From assembly GCA_003024785.1 (NCBI GenBank), contig PUQB01000089.1:554584-618583 (forward strand): 64,000 nucleotides of DNA, in the 5' to 3' direction. The position numbers were made by a program, and so were the translations under genes. The DNA comes from Selaginella tamariscina (taxonomy: Eukaryota; Streptophyta; Lycopodiopsida; Selaginellales; Selaginellaceae). Below, piece by piece: positions 30,895 to 64,000 of the stretch. Position 1 is the stretch's first letter. Each line of letters begins with the position of its first letter. The notes under the pieces were generated by a model. The model had not been told where the DNA came from and made no database searches. It saw only the letters and a program-made list of their open reading frames with translations.

Positions 30895-30896
30895 AT

Positions 30897-31945: not shown

Positions 31946-32134
31946 ATTTTAAATTAAATTAAATATATAAATTTTATTTATATTCTTTAATTTTATGAAT
32001 ATTTTTTTAAATTTATTCATTATATAAATTGTTAGTATATATATATATATTTTTTATTAAAATTAAGATTTGATATTCATGAATAGTAAAAATCATGGTT
32101 TAAGTCAAAAAAGTTAATCCATGTGAAAATCTGG

Positions 32135-36727: not shown

Positions 36728-36763
36728 ATTAGGTGTTTCACTTTCATTTATAAACACAAATTG

Positions 36764-38640: not shown

Positions 38641-39147
38641 TGGTTATCTTTATTAATACCAAATTTTTAAATATAATAATATCATACATTATTCATTTTG
38701 GTGTTTTAGAATGTTCAAAACGCGTATCAACACAGATACAGTCTATAGAAATATTAATGCTATATAATAAATATTTCTTATAGTGGACCTTATATATATG
38801 TATATTATATCCCGACGGAACATACATTCTTTATCTACACTTAAACACTTTATATATATATATCTGTCATTTTAAATTACAATACGGTGAATATAAAAAA
38901 AATATAAATTATATTTTGCCCATGCATTAAAATTGTTTACATATATTTGAATATATATATATATATATATATATTATATAATAATTACATATAGATATAC
39001 ATACTTCAGCCAATTCGATCTCCTCCAAGTTAAATATATCCAATATATTAGGTCATGTATATACACGATATGTGTATTTTCCTCATGTATAATTAGATAT
39101 ATATGTTTGAACCTTAATACGTACATATAGATGCACTTATTTATAAT

Positions 39148-41696: not shown

Positions 41697-42083
41697 TTCT
41701 AGGTATAGACTTCAAAATTTGGCACTTGCAGGTAATTGAACAATGCTTCACCATGTTTAAACAAACTTAAGAAACTTCAGGTACAATTAAATAATGTCAA
41801 GTTTTAGCTTTTTATCTCCGCGTTCAATTTTCCAGTATATGTTTATTTCTTTTAATGTTAAACTAATATAAACTACTACTCAGAGAAAAAAGAGAGGTAT
41901 ATATGTACATTTAAATATATATATATAAATATATATAGCATACATACACGTACATAGGTAAAATACATGGACCTTTATACATTATACATGTATCCAAGCA
42001 CACGTAAAACTATATAAACAGACATATATATGTGTAACACTTATCCAAACAGATGTTTGTGTATTGTCATATGTTCCGGCAGA

Positions 42084-42118
<35 letters not shown>

Positions 42119-42790
42119 AAACACGCAGGCGTATGTATTTGAAGTTATAAACCATTAATCCAGCTAATTAATAAATAGCTTTATTAAAATGTAAAAAGCT
42201 TTAAATATACAAAAAAATATTTTCATTTAGAAGTGAGGGAGGCTCAATCAAAATAAATTGCACATTAGACCATTGATTTTTATGTTTTATGGATTTTATT
42301 CGTTAAATTAAAAGGTAAAATTTCACAGACATAAAGATAGTTATGAAGGTTAGCTTTAATATTAATTTTATTACTATTAAATCAGAATTCATATTTAGCA
42401 TCTTTATAGGTATACTAGATTCTCTTTATTTATCACAATGGTATAATTAACCATTATCTGGAATTGGGATTCCCCTGTTTCTAGCTAGTGGGCTGTGTAC
42501 AAAAGCCATCTTCTCGGCTCTGCAGACAACTACTACTGCAACTGGTATTCAGATTTTATAAATGTACTAGAAAATAAATAAATAAAAATAAATAATATAT
42601 ATATTATAGTATCTTGATAAACAGATTTGGAACCCGCATTTCTGTTGCAAATTGTACAGGAAGACTAGATTTAAGTGATTGTGGTAAATTTAATTCATTA
42701 ATATATATTTATAATAATATAAACATATTACATAATTTTGGTTCGTTTTTATTAAAAAAAATTGTAGGCCTTGTTGAAATACCACCGGAA
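41355..42790 (+). repeat. Direct duplication upstream of LRR-hydrolase genes, copy 1
   Basis: Shares a long collinear series of words with 62470-64000: GTGGACGGAGTGTGATTGGG, TATACAGTATCACATATATAAC, CAACCATATTA, TCCAAACAGATGTTTGTGTATT, CACGCAGGC, GCTAATTAATAAATAGC, TTCCCCTGTTTCTAGC, GGGCTGTGTACAAAAGCC and the first LRR exon. The copies lie 21.1 kb apart and mark a tandem duplication of the gene's 5' region. Confidence 0.88.
41697..41785 (+). pseudogene. Orphan decayed LRR exon
   Basis: Resembles the exon at 43180-43273: ACTTCAAAATTTGGCACTTGCAGG, then AACAAACTTAAGAAACTTCAG and a GTAC donor-like site. It sits upstream of the first recognised exon of the 42625 gene, so it is a relic of an earlier copy or of an internal exon duplication. 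A similar relic is at 62890-62965. Confidence 0.6.
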
Positions 42791-43857
42791 GTTTTCAAGC
42801 TCTCCGATGTCGTCGATCTTTCGCTCGCAGGCAACTCTATTAGTAATCTTCCAGAAGAGATTCAAAACCTTCAAAAAGGTGTCTAATATAATCATAATTA
42901 TAGTAATAATAATAATCATATTATATTATTTATTATTTACAAATTTTAAATGTTTCCAGCTTGAAAGACTTGGCCTTGCCGGAAATGCACTACGTACATT
43001 GCCTGAAAATATAGGCAAACTATCAAACTTACAAGGACTTTGGCTGCAAGGCAATCTTTTACAGTCTCTTCCATCAGAGGTAATGTGCGTGCGTGTCTTC
43101 CATCAGAGGTAATGTGCGTGCGTGCGTGCGTGCGTGCGTGCGTGTGTGACACAAAAGATACATATATTCTGTTTTATAGATAGGCCAACTTGAAGAGCTT
43201 CGAACTTTAGCATTTGCAGGGAATATATTAACATCGCTTCCACCAAGTTTAAACAAACTTAAAAAGACTTCAGGTATATAAACTTTAAAATAATTTAAAT
43301 ATCGAGTTTTAATTGTTTTCTTTTTTCTTTTTGAAAGTAGATTTTTTTCAGTAGCTGGTAACAATCTTGCAGAACTTCCCGATGGTAAAATAGTTATATA
43401 TAATATATTAATAATATTATTTTATTTTATTATTTTTTATATTAATAGTTTTCCAGATTTTGGATCTAATCTCCTAAGAGTGCTTGCTTTATATGGAAAT
43501 TTGTTGTCTCAGCTTTCCTGAGAGTTTTGCACACATGCCAGAGGTTTAAAAACACTATTTTTAATAAGGGGAATATGCTGAAATATTTACCACCTATGAA
43601 AGGCTTGGTCTCATTAAAGCAGTTACCAGTTGCAGACAATCAACTTAAGTCGTTACCTAATACAGGTTTACAATCTCTTAAAACTTTATCATTGTAAGAT
43701 ATTAATAAATATTTATAATATTTATTAAATAATAATATTTATCATTAAATATTTAATTCTAGATGATATATATTGTTTGTGAAGGTATGGAAATCAACTT
43801 AGTGAGCTTCCTAAAACAGTTGAAGACATGACAAGCCTCAAGAGTATGTGGTTGGAG
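42625..43857 (+). other. LRR-coding exon block of the LRR-hydrolase gene
   Basis: Eight exons encode consecutive repeats: RLDLSDCGLVEIPPEVFKL, VDLSLAGNSISNLPEEIQ, LERLGLAGNALRTLPENIGK, LQGLWLQGNLLQSLPSE, LRTLAFAGNILTSLPPSL, SVAGNNLAELPDG, LRVLALYGNLLSQL, LKQLPVADNQLKSLPN and YGNQLSELPKTVEDMTSLKS. The spacing is 23 residues, as in short LRRs. Intron positions vary relative to the repeat, so this is not a strict one-exon-per-repeat gene. The repeats lack a signal peptide or membrane anchor in the part seen, so an intracellular location is likelier. Confidence 0.8.
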
Positions 43858-44430
43858 GTACTCTCTTTCCTCTCTCTCTCTCTCTCTCTCTTCTCTCTCC
43901 ACACACACACACACACACACGCATGCACGCACACGCACACGCACACGCACGCACACAGTTGATAACATTATATTTGCAGGGAAATCCTTTTGAGATAGAA
44001 TGGTTACGACATTTGTCCTTACCGGATAACTTAAAAGCATTTGGATTGAGCTCGAACTGTGTAAGCAAAAAATTTAATAAATAACAAAATAATTAATAAA
44101 TAATATGTTTAATTAAAATCTGTTTTGTTAATCAGGCGATTGATACTTCTTGTAGAAGTGTTTACATATCACAAATTGCTGGAACCGGAAATGCAGCTAC
44201 TCATGGTGGTTATTTCAAAGTAAATGGTGAAAAACACACACACACATGCCACACGTATGCGTATATGTACATATATATCTTATGTTTTATAGCTGCAAAG
44301 ATATACTGAGAGAAGTCCATCAAGCAAAGAAGCTACAGTCGTAGTTGTTGCATTTGGAAGTGCTCCAGCTGTTCCTAACTGGTTACCTCTCTCTCCCTCT
44401 CTCTTACACACACACGCACACACACACACA

Positions 44431-44468
<38 letters not shown>

Positions 44469-46516
44469 TTGCATTTATATAGGGAGGACTGCTGAATAGA
44501 GTGAAGAAGGACATGGAATCAGATGGAATATTACCTGCATTTGATATACTATATGTGGTTGATAGCTGGAGATCATGGTACACTAAACAAAAGATTAAGG
44601 TTAAACATGGTAATTATTACAAAAATGAACTTGAAGCTGCTGTTAAACATTATAAAAGAGTTATTATGCTGGGAGATTCAATGGGAGCAAGTGCTGCACT
44701 CATTTTCACCCTTGGCTACCTCAGTAATTGCTTTTTGCCCTCAGGTAAATTATTATTAAATTACCTCCATTTTAAGCAATTATGTATATACATATGCCAT
44801 ATAAGACACATTGTGTATTGGAAGAATAATGTGGACAGTTTGGATTCTTATTTGAAACTTTAAATTTGGTTGTTGCAATACTTAGGAGTTGAATATGGGA
44901 GCGTAGGTAATGTACATTTAACAAAAGATTGACATCAATTTAGAAACAAGAGTAAATGAAGTAATGTCAGGTCTGTCCATTATATATCAAAATAGCTATA
45001 TATATTAATATGATACATATATATTCATTATTAATGTTAATGAAGCAAATTTTTAGACTTTAAAAATTCTTAAATACCATATGCAGTACAACATTATAAA
45101 GATTGATAACTTCATCCTTAACGAAGTAAACTTTATATTGTTGTGTTATATATATATATACATATATATAACTTTCTTGTTTTATTTTAACATTAATAAT
45201 TTGTGAAATGTAAATAACAATGCAACATTAAAGAATTTAAATTATTAATTGAATGTTATATTCTTAATCAATAATTTAGAAGTTTTACTTATTTATATAT
45301 TTATAAAATGTTTTGGTATTCTTTCATTATTAAGTGTTTATTTTATTATGTATGGAAATGCCTAGATAAGCATATTCATGTATATGCTACATTGTGTGTG
45401 TATACATGTGTGCACCTCTCTCTTATGTAATTTTACATGTATGATATGTTTTTTTTATATATGTAGACTTTTAAATATATGTATAAATTTAAAAATCTCT
45501 CTCTCTCTCTCACACACACACATACTATTCTTATAAACATACATAATATTTAATATTTATTTATATAATCTCATATATTTCTATAGTGATGAAAAGAAGC
45601 CAAATATAACTATATAAATAACTATACATGTGAAAGTAAAAAATGTATAAACCCCATGTTTAATTAATCATTCACATTGACCAACAAACTAAATAGTAGA
45701 ACTACTATGTATTTATTAATAAAGCATTTCTATATATTTGCTGTGCTTGTCTTTCCAATTGCAGAGTTAAAGTCTAGATTTTTTATTAATTTGAATTATG
45801 TGCAAGTAAGTTGCAAACTCAAATCTTAAGTCATGAATATCAATAGTTGTCACACATGTCTCATGCAACATAAGTTTCTTCAAAACCTTGTGAACAGATT
45901 TTAAATATTCTTGATACGTACTTGTTTTATATGTGATGTCACTAGTGCTAGCAATCTCATCCTATCTACTAACATATCTTTTAAAAGATTTGTGCTTTTA
46001 AGTTGATGAGAGAAGTGGCTTATATTCATTAAATTCAAGTTGATAAGCACTCACATATTGTGCAAGTTGGAAAACTAACAATTGCATACTAGGGTTATAC
46101 ATATAACAAGCTTGTGCCACTTTTTGAGTCACCCATTTTTCTTATGAAGATATTATTGATATAAACTTGTGATGTTCATAACTTTGACTTATTTGTAGCA
46201 TGGCCAAATTTAATGATTTTATCTTTTTAAGACTCAACTTTCGCAAAATGTTTCTACTTCTTATATTATAACAAGCTGTATAGTTCCTGAAAGGTACTCA
46301 ACATTCAAAGCATAAAATTGTTTTTATGAATGTTACTTTTGTGTCCCAACATGTCGACATGCTACACATAGTCATTTACAACAATGTGTTAATGGTATAA
46401 TGAAATTTTGGGACACTCGCGAGTGGTTATATGGTGTTGTTTTAATAAGATATTGGTATCAAGCTAGGAGCAAGTGAAGTAAAGCCAAGTGCATTTCATT
46501 ATCTCTCCCAATAGTT

Positions 46517-46558
<42 letters not shown>

Positions 46559-49500
46559 TAATTGATGTTAATGAAGCAAATTTTCACGCTTTGAAAATTT
46601 ATGAAGATTATATACACTGCAACATTATAAAGATTAGTAACCGCATCCATAATAAAGTAAATTTTCTATATACATGTCAATGCTGTCTTTATGTGATATT
46701 ATATATATATATAACTTCCTTATTTTAACATTAACAATTTATAAAATGCTAGTAGTGATGCAAAATTAAAGATTGTTTAATTGTACAAATTTTTATAATA
46801 AAAGAATTTATTTCAATTTACATCACCAATGATATAATTCAAAAATCTTTAAGAATATACCATTATTATTATTGGAAATTATAAGATTATGACATGGATA
46901 TTAAGAATTTTCCCATGGGATGTGCAATAAAACTGAAAAATATAATTATATGTACATTATGACATTCCTTATTTGATTTGTGTAATGACTTTCTTCAATA
47001 GAGAGGGTATATTACATTTATAGGCTTGGGTAAATACATGTGTAACATACCCTCATACAACATCACTAACATAAACAATAATGATGTAGAAGTATTCATT
47101 TTATTTTTTATTTATTTATTCTTAATCCCAAAATGATTTTAAGAATATCCTTGGCACCTAAGACAAATATTCATTTAGAATTTCTTTTATTATTTTCATT
47201 TGTTTATGTTTAATATATTATATAAACTTTAGAACGCTTATATATGTAAATACATGCATACTTACATAAATTTCTATAATATATTATATACCATATATAA
47301 AATAAGTGAAGATCTTATGATTTTCTTTTATAAATGATAATTAATATACTAATACAGTAAATGATTCTTTTACACTTACATAATGTAAATACATATATAA
47401 TTTATATATATGTATGTATGTATATATTTATTTTAATAAGATTTCGTCATAATTACATTTTTACTATGTTGAGTGTTAATATGAATCATTCATGCATGTT
47501 GAAATAAATTGTACATCCATTTTGTGATGCTTAATAACAATAAAGATATAATGTCTTCATGAATTTACTCTTATGTGTTTTAATTAGTTTCATATTAAGT
47601 TTTCTTAATATAAATTTATTATTGAGGTCATATTATATAAAACTATAAATAATTATTACATTCTTACTTCATTAATTTAATATTTTAATTGATAAAAACA
47701 TTATGCATGTTGCAATTTGTAATATCTTATTATCTTTACACTCAATTGTTAACGAGAGCTTAACTACAAAATAAAAAATTATAATTATTATAAAAAGTAA
47801 TATATTATACATAGTATACCAATATTATGTAAAAACTACTCTATTAAATATTATTAATAATACAAATATGAACATATACATTGTCAGAGTTTTAACCCAA
47901 AGGGCCAACACGTGGCGACACATGGCTACCAGGTGGCCATTTGGCGTCATCACCCTGTGTGAGCAACGTTAAGTTTCTCAGAACAACCCCAACGGCCCCT
48001 AGGGTTAGACTCTAATGCCCAAGTGGACAGGAGACTTAGGGTTTAGCCTAAGTCTCCCTAAAGTGTCTACCCCCAAAACCCTTGAGGGATAACCCTAGTT
48101 GATTTAGGGTTTAACCTAAGTCTCCCTAGAGTGTCTGCCCCCAAAACCCTTGAGGGATAACCCTAGTTGACTTAGGGTCTTGCCCTAGAAGACCTAGACA
48201 GGCTCATGCCCTAACCCCCATCAAGGAACATGTGTTCCACACATACCCCTAGACAGAGCTAAGGCATCGTCACTTACCCCTTGAGGAATCACCCTCATTC
48301 GGGAGTACAACCCCTTTAGGGCAACAAGGGGTACCCTGAACCACGATTAACCCCTAAGGGTTTGGTGGCCAAGTTATACCCTAGACCTAGAGCTAGTACT
48401 TAATGAGGACACGAGTGTGCGCCGTAGGCGAACACGAGTGTCTTGCTAAGCAAACTCCCTAAGGCTAGGTTTGGGATAACCCTAAGCACATGACCTTGCG
48501 AGTGCCTCACGAAAGGGCTCCTGCTAACATGTTTAGGTTGTTCAACCATTGAATTCCAAGGAGAACACTCCCTAGCTAAGTGTGCCAAAGCACACCTAGT
48601 TATGAGACTTAACCTCCCTTGAGCGGATGCCCAAGGCTTAGCACCCTAGTGCAAGCACAAGCATGTCTGTTTGCTAAAGTATCCAACCCTTGGCGACAAG
48701 CCCATGACATAACCCCAAAGGGTGTGCCTCATGTTGTACCATGTGACGTTTAGCCCAGTGTCACATCTCCATGTGACACTGCCTTCCCCGATGTGGGCTA
48801 TCATGCCATAGCCCTTAGATTCAAGAGTTGCACTAAGTACCACAAACGTGGCTCCTAAATGCCAACTCTAGAACCCCTCTATGAACCCTCAGGAACCAAG
48901 TAACATGAACATGTCAAACAAGATCCCACGCCCACAGTTGGACAAGGACACGGATGTGCCTTGCTGGCCGTGAGTGCTACACCTAGCTTGATGTGGAGGA
49001 GGAGGTTGGAGACAAGCCTCAACCTCTACCTCTTGGAATGTGCATTCCGACAAGACCTCCTAGGCATGGATTCGCCAACGTTAAGGGTAAGCTACCCCGA
49101 AGGTGGGACGTACCCCTGGCATCTGGAAGTTACGGCGGCACAACAGAGGGTTGTGCCTTGACGACATAAGCTAGAGCTTGCACCGGGAGAAGAGTAACGA
49201 GCTCAGTCATGAACCCAGGAACCCTCGCTCCTATATACTACCTTATTTATGTGACAGAGGCCCCCCCCCCTATTTTCCTGTTTACATAAGTGGGCTAGCA
49301 CTGAAATCTCATTCCCAGAGGGAACATACTTGGTGAGTTATCCATCAACCCCTAAACCCTAACCTGTCAAACCTAGGGTATTTCTAAGCATATCCGACAT
49401 GCCAAACTCACCGGAACTAGCCATTAATCCAACCGGGACACGAAAACGAGGGTAAGAGTTTTCTAGAAGGTAAGTGCTACCTTCGCTTAGAGTTTCTCGA

Positions 49501-52500
49501 GATATCTAAGGACAGCCGGCCGGACTACCCCTAAACACCTAAGTGCACTAAGCGGGGCTGTTTCTCACTACATCTAGGGCTTGTCAACATAGTACAGTAG
49601 GTAACAACAGTCAACGTCCAAAGTAAAGAGGAGTCATAATAAAAAACTATAACACACATGTATATGTGCACATGCATATGTTTATGTGGCATTTTATAAG
49701 CTTTTTACTTATTTTAGTATATTTTATCATTCTTAATCATTTATATTAAATATATTTAATTGTTTTATTATTATTATTATTATTTGTAATATGCATGTAA
49801 ATGATAGTAAAGAAGCTCTTTACTGATGTAATTAATTATAAATCAGCTTAAACTTTGATTTATAAGAATATATAAAAAATGTATTGTGTTTGGGTTGTGC
49901 AAAAGATTTAATAAAGATAAATAAATTGAACATATAAAAATTAGTCTTGGTTTCAATTTCAATCTATTACATATTATAAAGATTAATAATTATTCATAAT
50001 ATCTTCTTAATATTTAATTATTTTTCCTCATTTTTGAATTTGTATTTATAATAGTAATAAGCTTTAGAATTCACTTCCTCTTATTAATTTAAAAAAAAAA
50101 AAGAATTAATAAATAAATCAATATGGTGTTATATTGATAATTTAGAAACGTATTATAAATTGAGCTTTAACTTATTAAATATACACATAATCATATTAAT
50201 TAAAAACATAAAATTAAAAAGAAAAAAAGAAATAACATATACATGTATGTCTTATTAAACAAACATACATAGAGTGAATTAACTCATATGATTTTTTTAA
50301 GTTCCGAATGTAAAAAAAAAACCTTATGCTTATAACACACCTACACATAAACAAATTGAGATGTAGTCACTCACCTAATTTTATAAGCATTGAAATAAGC
50401 ATTTATTAAGTAATTTTTTTTTTTAATTTTTATTTTTGTTAAAATCGATATCAATTTTAGTATGTACATGCATATCTCCTTCCCCCTCTCCCCGGCTCCA
50501 GGGAGAGGGGAACTTTAATAACATATTTACTGAACTTTAATAACATATTTACATTTTAAATTTATTACATAACATATACTTACCTGCTGGAAAAAACCAC
50601 CAGTTTGTTCTTTGGACTGCTGAGTCTTCTCTTTCGTAGCCTGAGAAGCATTGCTTGCAGAATCCTTAGCATGGCCCATCTTCTCCTGAGCTGACCCTTT
50701 AACCTCCTAATTTTGAATTTTAAATAACATAGAAACAAAATTTGAGAGAGGTGTGAATACTAAATACGATCTTATTAGGTCTGACTGATACAGGGTATTT
50801 ATACTAAGTGTCTATGCTAGGATTAGGACTTTGGTACCAAATAAATCATGGTGCCCAGATTAGCCAGCCCCCAGATTAGCCAATGCCCATATTAGTGTGT
50901 ATGACTCCTAATGCCACTTGGCACCATCACGGCAGAGTATACGTGGCATATATACATAGTATATACCATGGAACCTTACATCATCCCCCTCTCTCAAGAC
51001 ATGGCTTCTACCTATCAAGGTGGTCCTCCTCCTTGGACGAGTGTCCGTTGGTGGAACGGTAGTAGCCGACACACATGAGCGACATGTTGTGACTCCCGAA
51101 CCCCATCACGCCGCTTCAAACGATACACTTGTGTTCCCAACTGTTCTTCAACACTCCAAGGCCCGACCCATCGCGGTTGAAGCCCTGCTGCGTGTGTTTG
51201 ATCTCCTAAACTTTGGAAACTTGACGAGAACCAAATCTCCCACTTGGTATTGAGGTGGCATTCGATGTCGTTGATTGTAAGTCCGACGCTGATACTCTTG
51301 TGCACGAGCTAACTGTTCTCCACCTTGAGCATACAACAAAGGAAGGACTTGGTTCAAATGCTCCAACCACATACGCCCATCCATATACGTGCTTCGTGAG
51401 GAGTGATGCCAACTGCTGGTGGTAATACAGGTTCACGACCATACAAAGCTTTGAATGGGGAAATCCCTGTTGACTTGTGAGGGGCTGAAACATAAGCAAA
51501 TTGGAGATATGGAAGCCACATATCCCAATCGTATGGTCAGGACGCACATACTTGGCAAGCATGACTTTGAAAGTTCTGTTCAACCGCTCTACCAAACCAT
51601 CAGTCTCAGGATGATAAGCTGAGGCAAAAGATTGTCGGATTGCAACCGTCGCATCAACAAAGCTACTGCTTCTGCTGCTGGGCCTGGTCCTTGATCCGAT
51701 AAAATTCGTTCGGGACAACCATGCCTCAGCACCACTTGAGCTAGTAGGAACTTGATGATGGAAGTTGCTGTAGCATCTGGCAACAGCACACACTTCTACC
51801 CACCGAGTCAAGTAATCAGAGCACACAATGATGTATCGATTACCGAACTGCGACACAGGGAATGGTCCCATGATGTCATACGCTACCAGCTCAAAGGGGC
51901 GAGAAACTCGAATTGGTTCCAGGGTTGCGCAGGAGGAAGTGTGGACACGTTATGCCGTTGACACTCCGGACACGTATGAATGTACTCATGTAGGTCTTGT
52001 CGCAATCGGGGCCAATACAAGTGCTGTCGAATCCTCTCAAGGCATCGTTGGAATCCCATGTGTCCGGACATCGGGTTGTCATGAAAGAACTGCAACCAGG
52101 AGTTAATGTAAACTGGTGGTGCCACCACACGACACTCGGAACCGTCTCCAACAAAGACAAGCAAGTCATCCATCAGTCTGAAAGATCGTGCATATGTGCG
52201 AAAGTTAAGATCCTCGCAGGGTACCTCACTACTCAAGACTTCACGCAACCTCCTGATCCATGGCTCCATCTTTTGAGCCTCCACAATGTCTTCCCGCCTC
52301 GGAAGTACGCGATCAGGAAGGGCATCCGGCAACAATGCTACAGGGGCTGCACTACCACAGGAGCTCGGGATAACGCATCCACATCCGCCATGCTAGACCC
52401 TGGGCGATGAACAACCCGAAAACGATACCCTTGCAAAATTAACGCCCAACGTGCAAGTCGTCCCGTCACATTCCTCCTCTTCATGATTGAGTTGACAGCA

Positions 52501-55500
52501 GCATGATCAGTTTCCAACAATGTGTTGGAGCCATGTAGATATGCATGGAACTTTTGAAAGGCCCATACGGCTGCCAGACATTCCTTGTCCGTGGTGGAAT
52601 AATTTTTCTCTGCCTCAGTAAGGCTCCGACTTGCATAAGCGATTGGGTACCGCTGACCATTGGGAGTCTCCTGCAACAGATCGGCCCCAACCCGACATCT
52701 GAAGCATCGGTCCGAAGAATAAAGGATTTGGCAAAGTCCGGATACCGCAACAAAGGTGGAGATCCTAGCAATGCCTTAACATCCTCGAACGCCTTCTGAC
52801 ACTTCTTGGACCACCGGAACTGAGCTCCTTGTTTTAACAATCCTCGCAATGGGGCTGTCAAATCTGAGAACCGCGGAACAAACCTCGCTAGGTATGTTGC
52901 CTTTCCCAAGAAACGCTGCAACTCCGCCACTGACTCAGGAGCAGGAAATTCTCGTACAGCTAGGGTCTTCTCGGGATCCGGTTTCACACCCTCTGCCGTG
53001 ATGATGAATCCTAAGTATTTCAAGGAGGTACATCCGAACTTGCACTTCTGCTCTTTCAACTTCAGCCCGTATTGCACCAATCGCTGCAGGACCCGCTCTA
53101 ACTGCTGAAGGTGCTCCTCCCACGTAGCAGAGTGAATAAGAAGGTCATCGATGTACGCACGTGCAAATTCTTCAAAGCCCTCCAATAGCTCATCCATCAT
53201 CCGCTGGAAGGTTGGGGCCCCGACCAACCCAAATGGCATGACTGTAAACTCGTACAAGCCGGATGGTGTTCGAAATGCTGTCTTTGCTGCATCTTCAGGA
53301 GCCATAGGGATCTGCCAATAGCCGGAAGCCATGTCAAGATAGTGAAGTACCGGCTATTCCCCAATGCATCGACCAAATCATCCACCCTTGGTAGTGGATA
53401 TGAATCTGGAACAGAAACATCGTTCAATGGCCTGAAATCAATAGTGAAACGTGTAGTCCCATCCGGCTTCGGAACTAGGTGTGGTTCTGCTGCCCATGGA
53501 CTTCGAGACTTACGTATCACCTTCAACTCTAGCATCTCCCTCACACAACGATTCAAGATATCCTTCTCCTTTGGAGATCGTCGCCTGAGCCCCATTCTGA
53601 TCGGGCGAGTTGTACCAGTCGGGATGTGATGCCGAGTAGTCAACAGGGGATTTGCATCTCCTACAATGGGTTTGAATAGGCTCGGATACCTCGCCAAAGC
53701 TCCTTGATGTCCTTAGCTCGTTGCTCTGGAGAAGGCTCTGCCTTAGGCGCCATCATGCCCTGCAATGTTGCCGCCATGCCATTCGGTGCATGTTCTGTAG
53801 CCTGCAATGGGGGGCATCCTGGGATAGACAACGTGCACATTTCAAAATCACATCTTGCCTTGACCGCACGAAGCCAATTGACACCGAGGATGATGTCATG
53901 GACTTGGCTCGGCATCACCCGCAACGGAAGTAGATGATGGTATCCTCCTAACACCACAGGCACATGTGCAATTCGATGTGATCTAGCAAAAGACTGCTTA
54001 TCAGCAAACACTACCTTCAAAGTTCGCTCAGCTGGTACTGTGTGCAAGTGCAAGGACTCCGCTACTGATCGATTGATAGAAGATATACTGGATCCGGAGT
54101 CCACCAGGACTGAAACAGGAGTTCCTTCTACCATGCCGGAGAACACAAACATAAAACGCTCAGTGTCCAGTAACTCACTCGAGACCCCTATGCCCGCACA
54201 AGCATGGAAGAACAAAGGTGCTTCGGGGAAGTGTCGACCATGCGCTGGAATCAAGTTCTTCAGAGGTGGTGCAATGTGCCTAGTGCATGGGTCCTCTGAC
54301 ACCCCATGCACTATGCCTCGTTTTCCGGCTGCGGAAGAGTCTCCACTTCTTCTGCAATCTCGATGGCAGCTACTTGATGTCGATTTGCACATGCTCGTGC
54401 AACATGTCCCCAACCTCGGCACTCATAGCACTGAATGTTCCGCCCACGACCACCACGACCACGACCACGACCACGCCGATCAGCAGCTTGGCCTGGGCCC
54501 CTCCTGCGGCCTGAGGACTGGTCCTCCATCTGAACAGCACCCACCTCCATCGGAACAGGATCGGATGTCCCAGGAATAGGTGCCGATACAGGATATACAC
54601 GTTGTGCTGCCCCCAATGAGTTCTCAAATCTGTGCAATCCGCAAGGCCTCCTCCACAGTCGAAGGACCAAAGCCCTCCACCAAGCCAGCCAAACAGGGCG
54701 AAGAGCTGGCCATAACAAGCCCAAACGTACCCGTTCTGTCATGCTTGGATCGCACGATTGACCAAGTTTCGAAACTTAATCCCGAATCGTTGGACGTCTC
54801 TCCCGACACTTGCTTCAAGTCATGGAGCTCACGAAAAGCTGCAGCAGAATCCTCGGGCTTACCAAAAGCTTGCTTGAAACGCTGGGATAAGAGTTCCAAT
54901 CTTGTCGATCAAGAACGGGGACACCATTGTACCATTGCAAGGCAAGTCCTTGCAAACACGTTGGGAACTCTCGCAACCGCTGGGAGTCAGACCATCCATG
55001 GTAATCAGCAATCCCTTGAAAATGTTCCCACCAATGGTACACGTCTGCTCCAACTCCCCCTTGAAGAATTCTGGACGAACACGTGGATTGGAACCCAAAA
55101 GGTGTGGATTGAACTCTGCGGCATACTAGCATTCTGCTGCATTCCTTGGTGAATTTCTCGCAGCAGAGCAGTCTGATTTGCCACGCTCAATTGCAGTGCA
55201 TCGAACAACTGCAACCACCTTTCTTCGGTTGCCATCACGACCAAGAACACAAGGGAAGAGGGAGACAAAAAAACTAAGCCGAAAAAGGACTACCCAACAT
55301 CTCCACCAATGAGAGAGGTGTGAATACTAAATACGATTCATTAGGTCTGGCTGATACAGGGTATTTATACTAAGTGTCTGTGCTAGGATTAGCACTCTTG
55401 GTACCAAGTAAATCATGGTGCCCAGATTAGCCAGCCCCCAGATTAGCCAATGCCCATATTAGTGTGTATGAATCCTAATGCCACTTGGCACCTCATGGCA

Positions 55501-58500
55501 GAGTATACGTGGCGTATATACATAGTATATACCATGGAACCTTACAAATTAATACATTTAAAATTGATATTAATAAAAAATTAAAAATTCACCTCTTTCT
55601 TCTGACCAGCCTCATCCATCTTCTCCTGAGCAGTTCCCTCCATCTCCTGATATAATATGTTACTTAATGACACATACTGCTCTCTCTCTCTTACACACGC
55701 ACGCACGCACGCACTAATTTTACCTCTTTGTTTTGTAATAAATTTATTAATATGTAATGCAACTACTCAGTAATGGTTGAAAACTTATTAAACAGGAATA
55801 TACAACTTACCTTGCCCACAATCAAATTTTAACCCGATATTGAACAGCCTTAAATTTAGGTGACAAATTAATTCTGGTTAGTTTTATTTTTTGTTAATAA
55901 ATTTAAAAAAAGAAAAAAACCATTTCAATGTTTTTATTTACATTGTTTTTTAAACATGCCCAAAAGTAACTATTCTACCCTACAAGAAAAACATTGGATG
56001 GTAGACAGAGACGATGCTTATGCCCAAACAAAATTTATTGGCTCGTAAAGACTCTAGTTACAAAGAATTATGGAAACAAGATATACTCCATAAAGCATAA
56101 AGCTAAACGGGATGCTTGAAGACGATGGAGAACAGCATGTTTCAATTGCAAGAGTACCAGAAATTTAAATGTAAATTTGTTTTTTTTTTTAATCTCTTCA
56201 TATTGCCTTTGGCCCAAGGTATCCTTCAGTCGTCGTTGTAGGGCGCTTGTGTAGAGTTAGTTACACTTTAATACGTTATTTCCAAGAAATAAAAGAAAGA
56301 GGAAAACAGAACAAAGTGATGGAGGCTCAGTCTGATCCATCTCCCAGTTCCAGCCACATTTTCTTGTTAAAACTAGGTTTCTATTAGCCATTATTAAATA
56401 CGTGGCAAAGCTAGAAATTCTAACCTAGCCCTCAATACACTTAAAAGCTGAGTACAGATAATCCACAAGCTTTTAAGAACATAATAATAATGAAATATTT
56501 ATATAGATCCGGTTCATAAACTTTTTCCCAACCTTTCGCAGCTTGAAGTAGTTGCTGAAATTATGCTGCACAATCTTCCCTCTCTTCTCATCGACTTGGA
56601 GCTCATCTTCCACCTTGAAGAATGCGTCGCACATCTTCTCCAGCTCAGCGGACACCCGTCCCTGTCCCTGATCTCAGGACAAAGAAGAGACTTTAGGCAA
56701 ATGACACCGTAAAATGAATGACATACCTGCAGGAATGGGAATCGTACACCCCGAAGAACGAGCACCTTTGAATCCTCAGTTATATCCACCTGAAAACAAC
56801 ACAGTAGAACCAACAGCAGTTTTGAATCGTGCTATACCTCATGCTCAACAGCTGCTTTCCCCTTGACGTGAAGGTACAAGCCGCACTCGTCCCAAGCTTG
56901 ATTTCCTCCTGCTTTGCCACAGTGGTCCGCTGCTTCTTGAGAGGCCTAAAAAACAACAGTCGCGATCGAGTGTAAACTCAAATCAAACTGACCTGCCCTC
57001 GTCAAAATGTTCCATGAGGCCGGGCTCCCAGAGCTCTTCAGCTTCATTCTCATCAGTAAGTTCGCCGAGCTCCCGGAGCTCTTCAGCTTCATCTCATCAG
57101 CAACCTTCGCTGCAGCTCTTTCCCGGGGAGGGCTGCAAAGAAAAGAATGACTGCAGCTGAGATACACGGGAGAGAAACAAGCTTACCCGTCATGCTTGAA
57201 AGTACTTGCCTGCTCGGGCCTGAAGTCCAAATAAAACATTTAAGTTTTGATTTAACACAATGACAACAAACATACTTGCTGGTCTCCGCCTCCGTGGACT
57301 TGCTTGTTTCTTCTTTTTCATTGACCTTCGGGGTCCTGGAAAAAACAAACTGAAGTTGGCACTGAGGCAAGAACACAAGCTTACCAGGAGGAAGACATGC
57401 TAAAATCTTTTCAGCTTTCACAGCATCGGCTTGCCTGTTTCGGATCTGGAACAGGCACAGCTCGCATCCGACCTGGATCCAGTTGGTACTTGCCATCCGG
57501 TCCTGGAACGAGCCAGGGCAACAGAACGTCGAACCCCGCTTGGTTTCTTTGCGGGATGATGGCAAACCCACAAAGAAAACAGAAGAGGAGAAGCTTCCTG
57601 CTTATTTCCTTCCTGTTGAAACATGAAACGGTTGAAAAAAATGAAGCCTTTGGCCGTCACCGTGCGGCTACAGAGCACCGACAGGAAGCTGCCCAGGGGC
57701 ACCGGTGGCTATACATCTCGTGCTGCCCAGACTGCTTGAGCCTGCAACAATGATGCATGGCCAGCACAGCAGCAGCAGCCTCCCCACAATCTCTCCTCGT
57801 GGCCCCTCCACAACAAAGGCTTGCTTCAATACCCCACCCATGCTTTGGAGAAGAAGAAGCAGCACCTCCACATTGGCCAAGATGTGACCCGCCGCCTCGC
57901 CCAGGATCGGCTCTATCACGTCAGCAGTGAAGATACGCTCCGAATCCCCACTTACGTGACTCACGCTGCGCATATGGCCAGCCACCATGTGTTGGGCGAG
58001 GTCCGCCCACGCAGCCACCTCCAACCCGGCCACCACCCGATGATGGCCGTTGCCATTGCCTCCGTGATCATGCTCTTTTCCAGAGACACCCCGTTCAACA
58101 GCTTCTGGCTGGCGAACTTCACTGCACCCTTCAGGGACGCATTGTTTCCAAGCAGAGCACGCCAGAGCGGGCGCCCCATCTTGAAGAGCTCCCTTATAAA
58201 GTCTTCCGAAACAGCAGCCACATCCTTCTGCTCCGACATCAGGCGCTTCAGCTTGTCCGGCTCCCTGTGCGCGCTTCCCACCATCCACACGGGCTGAAAA
58301 AACTTAGCCGCTGGATCCACACCCCGCGCGCTCGGATCGAACATTCTGTGTGGGAAAATAAGACCTAGCTTCCCTGCTGTGTCAGCCACCAGACCGAAGA
58401 GCTTCCTATGGTGGGGTATCGCCGAGAAAACCTCCTAAAAAGCCAAGAACGAACCTGGCTGCTCCTTGAACAAGGAGGCGGCTTCATCCAGACAGAAGAC

Positions 58501-59958
58501 GACCTTCCTTCCCGGTGTGAAGACTCCGCTCAGCTTGCCGTCAATCCATTGCCGCAGTTGATCAGGATTCCACTGCTCTCCGGGAGCAGGAGACTGGTGA
58601 GGCACTCTTCGAGTCACGTCCTCCTTGAGTTCCTTGTAACTGGTAACACAATGTCAGCCCAAAAGCTACAGGAATTCCACTTGAGATACCTCTGGGACAC
58701 CTCCTCGCGGAATGACTCCTGCGCCTCCTTCCACTTCTCCGGGTTTTGTCCCTCCTTGGGGAATGACGCCTGCGTCTCCCTCCACTTCCCCGGGCTTGCG
58801 TCCTTTATCTGCAAGAGGATGGCGGCCACCCATGCCGCAATGCAGCGGGGGTCGTTGGTATCGGAAGTCAGCACGTCGGCAACTGCACTTCGCCCGGGGA
58901 CGCCCGTCGCGCCGGGGCTCATAAACGAAACGTACGCGACGTGGAAGCCTTTGGTAGCCAGCTCCTGGATCGATCTCGACTTCCCCCAACCCGAACTCTG
59001 CAGCGCCATCGTCCAGGCGGCATGATGTGTGTCACGCGCCCACTCATTCATGTAGCCATCCACAACACCCCCGAGATAGTCCACAACACGCAGAGGATCT
59101 TCGTACATTAGGTTCCACCCTCGGGACAGGGCTTCCTTCACACTCCCTGCGACTTGTTGCTCCTCCACCGGAGGAGGACTCGGGGGAGTTACCAGCAGGA
59201 GAGGCTGCACCCTTGGTTCAGCTGCAGCGGCAGCTCTCATCACACGATCTGCCCATTCTTTGTTAGGTACTAGCATCGCAGCCTGCACCTCCACAATCGC
59301 TTTATCCAATGTCTCCGTCGCTCTTAGCACCTCAGCACTGCCCCCCCCTCCTCATCAATTCTAACAGTCCAATCGATCAACCAACGTCGAATGGATGCCG
59401 GCGGGGAATGGGGGCGGCTCAGGCGCAGAGTTGATCTCCTCCAGCGCTTGACGCAGGCGCGCCGGGAGTGCTGTGAATGGAGAGCGAGAGAGAGAGAGAT
59501 AATCAGTCAGTCGGAGCTAGAAGGTTCTAAGCGCATACCGCAGAGATAGACGTTTTGTTCGGGCAGAAACTTGCCGCAGCCATACTTCGCCTCCAGCTGC
59601 TCTGGCGTGAAGCTGCTTTCTTCAGGAGGGTGATCGTGCCGCAAGACTCTCACCATCTGCGAGAGGAAAACCTAGTAGAAGGAACTAGGGTAATTTCAAA
59701 CAGTGCGGGATGAATCGGAACCCACGTCAGGAAAGTGATGGCAGCATGTGGGCTGAGATGAGATTAGAGAATTGGGGCGGTGGCGGAGCGATCAGCTACC
59801 ATTCCCCGGGGAAAGAAAAGGGCGTCGTTTGGGTGATAATCCCAGACTCCACATCTTTTGGCCGGCCAAAGGACAGAACATGGACTCTGACCAACGACAG
59901 GAACCAGACTCCAAGTCCTAAGTTGGCCAACCTGCGCGCACGCCCGTGTGTGTGTTGT

Positions 59959-59998
<40 letters not shown>

Positions 59999-60044
59999 GG
60001 GGAAATGGAAAGAGAGAGAGAGAGAGGGGGGGAAATGGAAAGAG

Positions 60045-60083
<39 letters not shown>

Positions 60084-61627
60084 GAAATGGAAACTAATTT
60101 CAACCACAACGAGGATAGAGATTTCTTTAAACAATCGGTCTCTTCTGTGTTTGCTCATATGATACAATGTGTGTGTGTGTTGTTAAAATAATAAATCTGT
60201 ATTCTCGGCCGGTGCTGAAGGTTTCAACGATGGGCAAATGATTTCACTACGGACGGATGGTTACCACTCCCGCCTCACATGGATAACTACTCCAAGTGTA
60301 CATAGTCTTGCTAGTGATCGTGATATGCCCTATGGAAAATGACATAAGTAGTGGGAATGATATTACAAAAAAAGAAACAATATAAAATAAATAAAACAGT
60401 AAATCATAGTTGCCAACTGTTTCACAAAAAAGAAATTTAATTATATGTCCTTTGGAATTAAAATATTGTGGGTACATGTGTTTATTTGACAATAATATTC
60501 TTTATTAAATTGATAAGTGTCTTGTGTGAACAAGACTTTGAAACAGTAATTATGATTATTTATAAATAAATATCATGATTTGTCAAGAACTTGATATTAG
60601 GAGTATTGGATGACATTAACAAAAGAATTTAAAATAGTCATTTTCTTATAAATATTATGTTGAAACTTAAATGAGTGATAATGCAAATATACACCTAACA
60701 TAATGCTCATGGCCATAATAATTATAATGTGTTTAAATTTTTTGTTAAGTGGTAGTGTGGATTGACAATAATGAATTATATTGACATACAAGCCGTTAAA
60801 GCTAATGTAGTTTACCCAAAGCAACATTAAAAATTAATACAAAATTAATTTAATATCAAAGTCACCATGATTAATAATATAGAATATAATTATGATAGTG
60901 ATATTTGTGTTTAAAACATTAAAAACATTTTCGTGAAAGCAGCATTGGAATGCATGATTGATTTAAAGATATTACACTAAAACTTTTTAAAAAAATTTAA
61001 AAATGGTATATCCAATGTTAAACACTGTGGACTTAAAGTTAACTGAAATTTAAAAATACAAAAATGGTATGTCCATATATTTAAATAATGTAAATAATGC
61101 ATACATGTATACTTTAGCGGCATATTACGTAAAGAAAATCAGAAAGTATAAGAAATTAACACTCCATCTACTTAAGAATTTTTTTAATTTTTGTATTTTT
61201 TAAATTCTTTTTTAAATATTATTATAGATTAATTTATTAATTAGGTGGATTTGCAAGCATCATCCATAAGGCCTGGTGAAGAAAAGAAGTGGCTAGAAGA
61301 TTATAAAAAAGCTCTTATTGATGCTGTTCTTGTTACAAATGCGGAGATACAAATCCATTGTGGAAGTTGGTCACATGACTGTTATCAAGCACGATGTCTA
61401 CCAGAAAGAAAGGTAAACAAGTATATACACACACATGTACGTGTATACAGATATGTATATATGTATATAAAAAGTATTATTCAAGTATTTATTTGACTTT
61501 GAATATAAAATAACAGGTTAAATGTAAAGTTCATAATGTCAACAGTCATCCGCTAGCAAAGGAGATGGACTCCCGTGGTTTGCTCGTACCACTGGTGAAG
61601 ATGGAGATTACTCACGCCTTGTGTTAG
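42625..61627 (+). CDS. Leucine-rich repeat / serine-hydrolase-like protein (multi-exon, giant intron)
   Basis: Exons with GT-AG borders: 42625-42683, 42768-42878, 42960-43079, 43180-43273, 43341-43384, 43457-43543, about 43569-43693, 43785-43857, 43980-44060, 44136-44219, 44293-44381, 44483-44744, 61245-61412 and 61517-61627 (stop TAG). The N-terminal half is LRRs of the SDS22/plant-intracellular style (GNxLxxLPxxI). The C-terminal half is an alpha/beta-hydrolase-like domain with VVVVAFGSAPAVPNW, GDSMG (44672-44686, Ser nucleophile) and, after the giant intron, IHCGSWSHD and NVNSHPLAKEMDSRG, a plausible catalytic His region. The exon pair across 44745-61244 joins in phase 0 to read FCPQ-VDLQASSIRPG, which fits the hydrolase fold. 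The frame is disturbed by small length changes in the exons ending at 42878, 43273, 43384 and 43543 (one extra A or T in a run) and in the exon at 44483 (one G short at its start, two bases short before the PLATSV segment). The 5' end is not found. Function unknown; possibly an intracellular sensor with lipase or esterase-like output. Confidence 0.75.
43068..43145 (+). repeat. Duplicated splice donor with GCGT microsatellite
   Basis: The exon end and donor TCTTCCATCAGAGGTAATG occur twice, with GT at 43080 and again at 43109, followed by (GCGT)n to about 43143. Use of the second donor would add 29 bases and shift the frame. The duplication has the same GTGCGTGCGTG flank, so slippage in the microsatellite probably made it. 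Confidence 0.75.
43868..43958. repeat. CT/CA/GCAC microsatellite in an LRR intron
   Basis: A (CT)n run, then (CA)n, then GCACGCACACGCAC-type sequence between the exons ending at 43857 and starting at 43980. A similar (CT)n(CA)n tract fills the intron at about 44390-44468. Confidence 0.8.
43980..44744 (+). other. Hydrolase-domain exons upstream of the giant intron
   Basis: Four exons. The first closes the LRR domain (GNPFEIEWLRHLSLPDNLK, a typical LRR cap). The second reads AIDTSCRSVYISQIAGTGN and THGGYFK. The third gives LQRYTERSPSS and TVVVVAFGSAPAVPNW. The last carries DILYVVDSWRSWY, VIMLGDSMGASAALIF and, in a shifted frame, SPLATSVIAFCPQ. The GDSMGA nucleophile elbow sits after a predicted beta-strand as in alpha/beta hydrolases. 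Confidence 0.8.
45030..45235 (+). repeat. Direct repeat in the giant intron, copy 1
   Basis: Words AATGTTAATGAAGCAAATTTT, GCA(G/C)...AACATTATAAAGATT, AACTT(C/A)ATCC and TATATATATAACTT recur in order at 46555-46770. The copies are diverged, about 1.5 kb apart and non-coding. Confidence 0.7.
45236..46519. other. AT-rich intron sequence, possible decayed retroelement
   Basis: No gene supported. The stretch 45770-46460 is less AT-rich and has a TTGGTATCAAGCTAGG word at 46453-46468 resembling an initiator-tRNA primer site, so an eroded LTR element is possible. No LTR pair or domain was found. Confidence 0.35.
46555..46770 (+). repeat. Direct repeat in the giant intron, copy 2
   Basis: Second copy of the 45030-45235 repeat. 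It is preceded by a 36-bp TA dinucleotide run (46520-46555). Confidence 0.7.
46771..47881. other. AT-rich intron sequence
   Basis: Nothing recognised on either strand; AT-rich with scattered TATATA runs. Confidence 0.5.
47882..49654 (-). mobile_element. Solo LTR-A, full length
   Basis: The most complete family member here (1773 bp), TGTCAGAG to CTATAACA. Flanks TACAT (47877-47881) and CACAT (49655-49659) match at four of five positions, consistent with an aged target duplication around a solo LTR. It contains a short internal duplication (CTTAGGGTTTAGCCTAAGTC near 48029 and again near 48103), a CACGTGGC G-box at 47909-47916 and a C-run near 49259. It lies inside the giant intron in the opposite orientation to the host gene. 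Confidence 0.82.
49655..50583. other. AT-rich intron sequence
   Basis: No gene recognised. A CCTTCCCCCTCTCCCCGGCTCCAGGGAGAGGGG patch near 50481-50512 includes a CTCTCCC/GGGAGAG inverted repeat. Any further 3' exon of the LEA gene should lie here on the minus strand, but none is clear. Confidence 0.45.
50584..55646 (-). CDS. LEA-type (group 3 / LEA_4-like) protein, two exons seen, partial
   Basis: Exon 55646-55593 (18 codons) reads EMEGTAQEKMDEAGQKKE. Exon 50706-50584 (41 codons) reads EVKGSAQEKMGHAKDSAS and then NASQATKEKTQQSKEQTGGF with FQQ at its end. Both have AG/GT borders and phase 0, so they join cleanly. The Ala/Lys/Glu/Gln-rich, Gly-poor helical pattern with AQEKM and TKEKTQQSKEQTG motifs is that of plant late-embryogenesis-abundant proteins, which protect membranes and proteins in drying cells. 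The start and 3' end were not found. The intron between the exons holds a Ty3 element (50743-55546); without it the intron would be only about 80 bp. The gene may still be spliced or may be dead. It lies on the opposite strand inside the giant LRR-hydrolase intron. Confidence 0.7.
50743..50980 (-). repeat. 3' LTR of the Ty3 element in the LEA intron
   Basis: On the minus strand it runs TGTAAGG to CTCTCA with a TATAAATA box at 50803-50796. It contains the close duplication CCCAGATTAGCCA (twice, near 50858-50884). Confidence 0.9.
51015..52335 (-). pseudogene. Integrase region (Ty3 element in the LEA intron)
   Basis: Zinc-binding part H...GFQRCLERIRQHLYWPRLR and CPECQRHN (near 52090-51960), core opening MGPFPVSQFGNRYIIVCSDY (51871) then LTRWVEV, and FASAYHPETDGLVERLNR near 51620. 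The C-terminal tail ends about 51015 without a chromodomain. Broken fossil. Confidence 0.85.
52338..53620 (-). pseudogene. Reverse transcriptase and RNase H (Ty3 element in the LEA intron)
   Basis: Motifs in order: LVPKPDGTTRFTIDFRPLND, SYPLPRVDDLVDALGNSRYF, MPFGLVGAPTFQRMMDELLE, ARAYIDDLLIHS (YxDD, near 53155), then RNase H with FILRTDASDVGLGP (near 52710), AEKNYSTTDKECLAAVWAF and RVVHRPGSSMADVDALSR. Broken fossil. Confidence 0.9.
53850..54155 (-). pseudogene. Protease region (Ty3 element in the LEA intron)
   Basis: Aspartic protease signature VSVLVDSGSSISSINRSVAE, then VFADKQSFARSHRIAHVPV and HDIILGVNWLRAVKARCDF, the usual retropepsin layout with ILG near the end. Part of the broken element. 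Confidence 0.85.
54380..55240 (-). pseudogene. Gag region (Ty3 element in the LEA intron)
   Basis: Opens with MATEERWLQLFDALQLSV, followed by Gln-rich helices, a capsid-like part and a single CCHC knuckle CYECRGWGHVARAC near 54400-54440 in an Arg/Gly-rich context. Broken fossil. Confidence 0.75.
55310..55546 (-). repeat. 5' LTR of the Ty3 element in the LEA intron
   Basis: Matches 50743-50980, TATAAATA at 55369-55362. This TATA box would drive minus-strand transcription, the same direction as the LEA gene. Confidence 0.9.
55647..56472. other. Non-coding spacer between LEA exon and CRN-like gene
   Basis: No gene recognised. A CTCTCT then GCACGCACGCACG microsatellite lies at 55679-55713. Donor-like sites on the minus strand near 55729 and 55810 could belong to upstream LEA exons, but no convincing coding sequence adjoins them. 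Confidence 0.4.
56473..59656 (-). CDS. CRN (Crinkler)-like P-loop NTPase family protein, multi-exon, probably interrupted
   Basis: GC-rich gene (roughly 55% by eye) in a very AT-rich setting. Exon 59656-59539 starts MVRVLRHDHPPEESSFTPEQ. Exon 59470-58690 carries a Walker-A-like SSGWGKSRS (about 58980) and KGFHVAYVSFM. From 58639 come EDVTRRVPHQ and a Walker-B-like KVVFCLDEAASLF (about 58500). Further left are KLFGLVADTAGKLG, VSGDSERIF, EPILGEAAG and a RGEIVGRLLL-type segment. C-terminal exons 57335-57276, 57219-57187, 57132-56993, 56945-56838, 56789-56727 and 56667-56473 have clean borders and 45-60 bp introns, ending QGRVSAELEKMCDAFFKVED and NFSNYFKLRKVGKKF. From family memory these segments match the large CRN-type NTPases of fungi, oomycetes and some other eukaryotes; function in a plant is unknown. 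The frame is not continuous throughout: a few breaks or unresolved splice sites, treated as a fossil. Confidence 0.7.
59657..60170. other. Upstream region of the CRN-like gene with GA/TG microsatellite
   Basis: A moderately GC-rich leader (59657-59940) is followed by a (TG)n then (GA)n tract at 59946-60083. The leader should hold the minus-strand promoter of the CRN-like gene; no clear TATA box is evident. Open frames through the microsatellite are artefacts. Confidence 0.6.
60171..61244. other. AT-rich end of the giant intron
   Basis: No gene recognised. It ends in a T-rich run and the acceptor TTATTAATTAG before the exon at 61245. Confidence 0.5.
61245..61627 (+). other. Final hydrolase exons downstream of the giant intron
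   Basis: Exon 61245-61412 (56 codons) and exon 61517-61627 (36 codons and stop) have clean AG/GT borders and joined phase 0. They read VDLQASSIRPGEEKKWLEDY, EIQIHCGSWSHDCYQA and VKCKVHNVNSHPLAKEMDSR. From memory of similar proteins in other eukaryotes, these segments follow directly after the FCPQ strand, which argues that they belong to the exon ending at 44744 rather than to a separate gene. Confidence 0.75.
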
Positions 61628-62469: not shown

Positions 62470-64000
62470 TTCTTAAATTTCTTTGCTCTATGTTTTTCTG
62501 TGGACGGAGTGTGATTGGGTATACAGTATCACATATATAACAGAACATACATATATCCACACACGAACACACACACACACACACACATCTTGTATACCAG
62601 GACAAAAACAATATCAAATCATTATCTAAAATTAAATTCATTTTCATTAAAGAATAAATCTATAAATAATAGCGTTTCGAAACGTTATAAGGAATTTTAT
62701 TAATAACTTATTGTTTAAACAATGAACCTACTTCCTATGTTATGAGGTTTAAACGTTATGAGCAATATTATTAATTTATTAAAATTATAATTCTCAACCA
62801 TATTACTTTTTTTTAAAGAAATAGTTGGTATATACTATATCTATACACACGTATATACGTGTGTTTATAAATAGTGCATACACGCCCACACATTTCATTT
62901 CAAATTTGGCACTTTCAGGTAATAGAACAATGCTCCATGTATATACAAACTTAAGAACAATTAAATAATATCAAGTTTTAAATTTTATTTCTTAATAAAT
63001 TTCGTTCAATTTTCCAGTATATGTTTATTTCTTTTAATGTTAAACTACTACTCAGAGAAAGAGAGAGGTATGTACATTTAAACATATATAAATATATATG
63101 TGCATACATACACTTATATAGGTTAAATACCTGGACCTTTGTACATTATACATGTATCTAAGCACACGTAAAACTATATAGACAGACATACATATGTGTA
63201 ACACTTATCCAAACAGATGTTTGTGTATTGTCATATGTTCCAGCAGAACACGCACACACACACACACATGTGTGTGTGTGTGTATAACACGCAGGCATAT
63301 GTATTTGAAGTTATAACCATTAATCCAGCTAATTAATAAATAGCTTTATTAAAAATGTAAAAAGCTTTAAATATACAAAAAATAATTGTTTTAGTATATA
63401 TGAAGTGAGGCTCAATCAAAATTAAATTTGCTCATTAGACCATTGTATTTATATTTAAAGTCAAACTTTAATATTTATGTTTGGATTTTATTCGTTAAAT
63501 TAAAAAGTAGTATTTCATAAACACAAAGATAGTTATGGAGGTTATCTTTAATATTAATTTAATGCTCTTTAAAAAATAAACTACATATTACTATTCATAT
63601 TTAGCATCTTTATAGGTATATACTAGATTCTCTTTATTTAAATTTTATCATAATATAATTAACCATTACCTGTGGATATGGGCATTGAATTCCCCTGTTT
63701 CTAGCTTAGTGGGCTGTGTACAAAAGCCCATCTTCTGGCTCTGGACAACTAATACTGCAACTGGTATTCAGATTTTATAAATGTACGTAGAAGATAAATA
63801 AATAAATAAATAAAAATTTATATATATATATATATAAATTATTGATCTTGATAAACAGATTTAGAAGCCCGCATTTCTGTTGCAAATTGTACAGGAAGAC
63901 TAGATTTAAGTGATTGTGGTAAATTTGATTCATTATATATATATATATATAAACATAATTTTTTTTTATTAAAAATAAATAAATTTTAGGCCTTGTTGAA
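62470..64000 (+). repeat. Direct duplication upstream of LRR-hydrolase genes, copy 2
   Basis: Collinear with 41355-42790, with small indels and different microsatellite lengths (for example CACACACA/TGTGTGTG near 63250-63283). It includes an orphan LRR exon relic at about 62890-62965. Confidence 0.88.
63859..64000 (+). CDS. LRR-hydrolase gene, next tandem copy, first exons (runs off the window)
   Basis: Exon 63859-63918 encodes the VANCTGRLDLSDCG segment with a GTAAAT donor, and the next exon begins at 63990 with GGCCTTGTTGAA after a TTTTAG acceptor, both as in 42625-42778. The 5' part of the first exon has one base more than the 42625 copy (GAAGCCCGC versus GAACCCGC). The rest lies outside the window. 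This copy lets the break points of the other be tested. Confidence 0.75.

Follow-up and report, generated by a model that had tools for sequence, protein, structure and literature searches.

Which kind of protein couples leucine-rich repeats (LRRs) to a serine hydrolase, and does it serve recognition? The question is raised by a stretch of 64,000 nucleotides from Selaginella tamariscina (contig PUQB01000089.1, positions 554,584 to 618,583; hereafter the window) that carries exons for LRRs and for a hydrolase-like domain with the motif GDSMG. The initial annotation had described a gene family expanding in tandem, as recognition genes do, and had suggested a sensor whose output is a hydrolase.

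LRR and hydrolase exons form one gene

The gene model was obtained by spliced alignment of the window DNA to P0001, a protein of Selaginella moellendorffii (LOC112341277), together with translation. The alignment revealed an LRR-hydrolase gene on the plus strand (42624-61609) with at least 13 exons spanning P0001 residues 53-576. Eleven aligned exons lie within 42624-44744, and the final two lie beyond a 16.5-kb intron (Table 1). LRR exons come first and the GDSMG exon follows, as had been annotated, with near full-length homology to single proteins of other plants. The N-terminal extension (P0001 residues 1-52) was not located in any copy.

Small exons and the split of the window copy by its intron would suit two neighbouring genes, one for the LRRs and one for the hydrolase, read as one. 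However, single proteins with both parts occur in many lineages, and a sister copy has its exons in order over 2.8 kb. The homologues refute this explanation, to which we assign next to no probability. The two pieces near 61 kb had been taken for fragments of other copies; this was rejected, because the CPQ/VDLQ junction carries the 42.6-kb copy into them in the order found in P0001, and they are its last exons. The long copy and the start of a second one were confirmed.

The long copy is not open, since its spliced alignment requires five frameshifts (Table 1). It covers 85 of the 86 family sites that are at least 95% conserved and differs at 7 of them, including Arg557 beside the catalytic His, which is Pro in the last exon (Arg is kept in 99 of 100 family rows).

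A conserved family of the green lineage

A hand-made read-through protein of the window copy was used as query, and 544 proteins matched at E ≤ 0.001. Coverage was at least 90% in 109 of the 120 matches listed. The best match was P0001, with 61% identity over 99% of the query. Rows of the match list are clusters at 90% identity, in which very close copies would merge. An organism was named in 34 of the 120 rows, giving 29 organisms: Selaginella, a liverwort, mosses, ferns, Cryptomeria, Closterium strains and chlorophytes. Some other gene-name prefixes belong to what we take to be further charophytes and a euglenid. No flowering plant was named among the 120 matches listed, and absence of the family from flowering plants is suggested.

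Conservation is the same in both parts of the protein, with a mean identity to P0001 of 48% for the LRRs and 49% for the hydrolase. Judged from these sequences, the gene is an ancient, conserved LRR-hydrolase gene of the green lineage. One metagenome protein (P0141), in which a HAD hydrolase is joined at GDSMG, was set aside as probably an assembly chimera at the shared word. Literature searches that required several terms together found no description of the LRR and hydrolase pair; one may exist, since subscription papers were mostly outside their coverage.

Fold and active site of the hydrolase domain

The structure model of P0001 (predicted local distance difference test score 89) comprises an LRR solenoid and an alpha/beta-hydrolase fold. 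GDSMG forms a nucleophile elbow between strand 460-466 and helix 468-475, and the order of Ser467, Asp534 and His556 follows strands 460-466, 523-528 and 546-550. Of 100 rows, all retain Ser467, and Asp534 and His556 are each retained in 99, so that the model and the conservation bear out the predicted hydrolase fold and the register of its three triad residues. Gln489, in a PQ pair after the strand that follows the elbow, is present in all 100 rows. P386, N387, D415, R418 and W420 are also invariant. VVVVAFGSAPAVPNW, in the preceding hydrolase exon, would form a strand and loop on the oxyanion side.

The domain model matched 116 PDB chains at E ≤ 0.001; the matches shown were mostly esterases, lipases and peptidases. 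The first part of the LRR exons matched Pfam LRR_8 and LRR_14, whereas the hydrolase domain, scanned in 11 members, stayed below every Pfam cutoff. Six of these 11 leaned weakly to Esterase PF00756 (best E 0.0037; the first member scored 15.2 bits, where the cutoff is 22). NCBIfam gave weak matches only, in one or two of the 11 members per family, and PADLOC matched the hydrolase domain in none of them. In sequence searches of the PDB, the plant profile reached a best E of 0.25 and the consensus gave no match. A family conserved in algae, mosses, ferns, lycophytes and a conifer thus has a catalytic domain below all Pfam cutoffs in the members scanned.

The fold might have been retained as a non-catalytic part for binding or dimerization. 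No activity is known for the protein, and the invariant residues outside the triad would fit such a pseudoenzyme. The near-complete retention of Ser, Asp and His in fold order argues against it, and we consider it improbable.

Bacterial relatives of the hydrolase domain

A consensus of the plant hydrolase domain was searched against 72,556 plasmid records. At E ≤ 10 there were 22 matching records, 20 of which were listed; 7 of these 20 had E ≤ 1e-3 (best 1e-5), all alphaproteobacterial. Five regions were read, from Paracoccus, Thioclava, Marinovum, Sinorhizobium (without listed genes) and Marinibacterium; Acinetobacter was left aside. Polysaccharide genes were found in three of the four annotated neighbourhoods, and the Thioclava region contains a sulfatase and a 3'-phosphoadenosine 5'-phosphosulfate (PAPS) reductase.

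The plant and bacterial profiles aligned over 178 columns (hhalign probability 99.6%, E 2e-23), whereas control alignments with a reversed (one) or shuffled (20) bacterial profile reached at most 1.0%. The part before the elbow alone gave 61% and the part after CPQVD alone 91%. On this profile evidence, the plant domain is homologous to bacterial proteins, some of which are encoded in polysaccharide loci. PQ is found in three of the five bacterial relatives and PE in two.

In a set of prokaryote species, plant patterns gave 18 matches with no relative among them. With a bacterial relative as query there were 19 pattern matches, including one relative, from Aquicoccus. The plant profile matched 5 of 190 genomes of the class of Aquicoccus, with no match in Aquicoccus itself. 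Four places in Aquicoccus porphyridii match the bacterial profile. A cyanophage S-H9-2 protein (QPB08389.1, L048:3959-4561) contains a short domain related to this hydrolase, which shows the elbow and PQ motif pair as GNSAGG and FQPQ.

A conserved LRR face argues against an immune sensor

In the PDB, the LRR part had SHOC2 as one of its best matches. Variability of the LRR face was measured over 11 repeats in 100 rows, with positions 3, 5, 7 and 8 taken as concave (44 concave against 77 convex sites). Mean variability was 1.25 bits on the concave and 2.98 bits on the convex side; without position 8 the concave mean was 1.45 bits (convex 2.98). Several concave residues that occur in just one or two of the repeats are kept, namely W137 (94 of 100 rows), H139 (91), Q231 (96), Y277 (98), W298 (96) and E300 (100); positions 160, 206 and others vary more. 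Such a pattern suggests a constant partner bound to part of the face rather than a diversifying sensor.

The initial annotation's sensor would recognise foreign ligands with its LRRs, and the local duplicates and fragments in the S. tamariscina genome agree with such a role. A pathogen sensor should diversify at its concave face, however, and this face is conserved from algae to Selaginella. Birth-and-death expansion, read as the mark of recognition genes, was not supported: among the matches listed, 26 of the 29 named organisms have a single row (the others being Closterium sp. Naga37s-1 with four rows, and Cryptomeria and Sanguina with two apiece), and the GDSMG exon was found at two places in the assembly, a lower bound. 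No NB-ARC, TIR or kinase domain was found at E ≤ 0.01 in six full-length homologues (P0001, P0010, P0042, P0069, P0083 and P0119), so the design differs from nucleotide-binding LRR receptors and receptor kinases, as had been noted; the lack of PADLOC matches also speaks against a sensor. We regard an immune role as very unlikely.

An N-terminal extension is present in 23 of 24 labelled rows, and 18 of these 23 have at most three acidic residues in the first 60. By this composition the extensions resemble transit peptides in part, and the protein is possibly located in the plastid.

Acyl transfer or simple ester hydrolysis

CsaC (SacC, PDB 6yuo) is described as a capsule polysaccharide O-acetyltransferase with the triad Ser114, His228 and Asp198; Gln138 is close enough to the serine for a hydrogen bond, the Gln138Ala exchange removes 96.8% of transfer, and replacing His201 costs more than 70% (PMC7501274). 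Its authors also point out Gln138 in several bacterial proteins that are uncharacterised (PMC7501274). Asp2 is described as acetylating N-acetylglucosamine (GlcNAc) with a Ser-Asp-His triad (PMC5578698). In our PDB search the bacterial profile matched CsaC at E 9e-4, with Ser114 and Gln138 falling on GxSMG and PQ; through this alignment Gln138 appears to occupy the position of plant Gln489. The plant profile itself did not find CsaC by sequence in the PDB. Plant R498 (99 of 100 rows) lies at a distance after Gln similar to that of CsaC Arg148, which positions the acceptor, but no alignment covers this site securely.

Because of the CsaC-like residues and the acetylation of GlcNAc by Asp2, acyl transfer to a glycan is our best single guess. 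We propose, as a tentative reading close to an even call, that the protein is a conserved, possibly plastid acyltransferase docked by SHOC2-like LRRs. The LRR solenoid would dock a conserved partner or substrate and present it to the C-terminal serine enzyme. Ser467, with His556 as base and Asp534 as acid, would attack an ester to form an acyl-serine. This intermediate would be held by Gln489, located where the next strand ends, as Gln138 does in CsaC. O-acyl transfer would then place the acyl group on a glycan or glycolipid hydroxyl; when no acceptor is bound, the group would pass to water. The protein would act in the plastid.

Two observations weigh against this proposal. With the bacterial profile, two esterase rows of similar score rank just above CsaC; because other esterases score like CsaC, we lowered our confidence in acyl transfer slightly and that in a plastid O-acyltransferase by still less. 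In addition, the third residue beyond the triad Asp is His201 in CsaC but Gln537 in the plant family (99 of 100 rows, one gap). Because this defining feature fails, the plant protein was not classed as a CsaC member.

The main rival is simple ester hydrolysis: with the same fold and triad, the protein would be an LRR-docked esterase, lipase or thioesterase acting on a small ester or acyl protein, without glycan transfer. The composition of the structure matches, the weak Pfam lean to Esterase and the matches of the bacterial profile to PDB esterases all favour a plain hydrolase. The invariant PQ, placed as in CsaC, and the polysaccharide genes beside the bacterial relatives argue against it. 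We consider this rival a serious one and quite possible.

An O-acyltransferase guided by its LRR arm would, if real, use that arm to select the partner or acceptor, and would represent an unrecognised system of glycan or glycolipid acylation in plants. In a wider account, green algae and non-flowering plants would have kept a plastid LRR-guided O-acyltransferase with a CsaC-like Gln-extended triad, its catalytic domain sharing ancestry with bacterial polysaccharide-modifying enzymes, and flowering plants would have lost it. We hold this account to be doubtful; if true, it would extend the glutamine-assisted triad to eukaryotes.

Further copies and the content of the intron

A sister copy lies on the minus strand 4.5 kb to the left of the window (C1270:550064-547297), with 14 exons covering P0001 residues 53-576. 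Window exon 43457-43693 corresponds to two exons there. The sister covers 85 of the 86 conserved family sites and departs at 5. Between the window and sister copies, synonymous divergence (dS) was 0.084 and nonsynonymous divergence (dN) 0.037 over 493 codons; dN/dS was 0.44, and 0.31 in the hydrolase part, the latter from about 18 changes. Recent duplication and decay is the best explanation for the window copy, and single frame breaks may be assembly errors. Real and assembly breaks are hard to tell apart, because the sister requires two frameshifts of its own; both fall in exon 12, and one sits at an exon junction that is broken in the window copy too.

Table 1. Positions of gene parts, further copies and intron features in the window
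Feature	Position	Strand	Basis or remark
LRR exons	42624-42683, 42768-42880, 42960-43079, 43180-43273, 43352-43384, 43457-43693	+	Alignment to P0001; frame breaks near 42633, 43516, 43547
Last LRR exons and linker	43785-43857, 43980-44060, 44136-44219	+	Alignment to P0001
Hydrolase exon with VVVVAFGSAPAVPNW	44293-44381	+	Alignment to P0001
Hydrolase exon with nucleophile elbow GDSMG (Ser467 in P0001) and CPQ (Gln489)	44483-44744	+	Frame breaks 44484, 44702
Hydrolase exon with GSWSHDCYQ (Asp534)	61245-61412	+	Alignment to P0001
Last exon found, HNVNSHPLAKEMDSRG (His556)	61517-61609	+	Alignment to P0001
Intron	44745-61244	+	16.5 kb; counterpart in sister copy 332 bases
Long terminal repeat (LTR) retrotransposon	50743-55546	-	Self-BLAST and Pfam
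Start of further copy: upstream region and exon 1 (63858-63920)	62899-63957	+	Self-BLAST, exon search
Decayed partial LRR copy	34511-35052	+	Self-BLAST, spliced alignment; outside the span of the initial annotation

The start of the further copy is 82.5% identical to 41711-42727 over 1098 aligned columns. The last 12.4 kb of the contig yielded no later exon of this copy, which is either a fragment or truncated by an insertion together with the end of the contig. The decayed LRR copy sits in a stretch 76.8% identical to 42763-43475; a fifth aligned exon (35594-35704) was not trusted.

At a third locus, on C472, exons 1-11 run up to a run of N, and the last exons of another copy lie 5.4 kb off. 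An 880-residue open frame beside this copy is best explained by the 2.5-kb N run (C472:374545-377044). In the 300.7-Mb assembly (1,391 contigs), the two places counted for the GDSMG exon are a lower bound, as the C472 copy enters the N run where that exon would follow. C538 and C1283 hold older LRR remains of the family; a spliced model mapped there gave many exons but was not trusted outside the LRR part. C538:829501-838500 and C1283:41001-50000, with the old decayed LRR copy, are 98.3% identical over 8.2 kb, either as a duplicate haplotig or as a segmental duplication. Every copy found was interrupted or partial.

The intron contains a dispersed repeat near 48139-49657, the LTR retrotransposon and a GC-rich stretch. 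The retrotransposon ends (50743-50980 and 55310-55546) are 95.4% identical by self-BLAST. On its minus strand, one frame matched both reverse transcriptase PF00078 (6e-27) and RNase H-like PF17919 (5e-12); two further frames scanned gave no match. The GC-rich stretch (57089-59351; GC fraction 0.57 at 58-60 kb) has minus-strand reading frames, and the four scanned had no Pfam match at E ≤ 0.01. The dispersed repeat family also occurs at 5079-11361 and 29194-33712, on both strands, with aligned pieces about 73-91% identical. An inverted repeat pairs 1-2678 with 36725-39123 (pieces 86-88% identical).

Comparison with known systems

P0001 and the green relatives share the whole architecture of the window gene; P0001 is listed unbroken, whereas the window copy has five frameshifts and an intronic retrotransposon. 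SHOC2 has the same class of LRR, as presumably do plant proteins of the PIRL type; neither SHOC2 nor PIRL-type proteins are known to carry a hydrolase domain. The alphaproteobacterial relatives (L043-L047 and L051) have a homologous hydrolase domain, with profile alignment for L043-L047; identity to the first of them is 20-25%. No LRR match was found in the five scanned, and in two of five (L045 and L046) the domain is joined to tetratricopeptide repeats.

Asp2/Gap2 of the accessory Sec system is an O-acetyltransferase with a Ser-Asp-His triad, like that conserved in the plant family. A chain of the Gap123 complex, probably the Asp2-like subunit, was among the structure matches of the hydrolase domain. 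By sequence, Asp2/Gap2 was not reached above cutoff; the Asp2 model PF16929 matched weakly in one of 11 members (E 0.06). Asp2/Gap2 is not known to contain an LRR part.

CsaC has the hydrolase fold and the order of Ser, Asp and His seen in the plant protein. It shares about 17% identity in structural alignment, and its described fold has no LRR part. By analogy, the plant protein may work like CsaC, and the active-site link to bacterial sugar O-acetyltransferases offers a concrete substrate class for Marchantia, Physcomitrium and Chlamydomonas.
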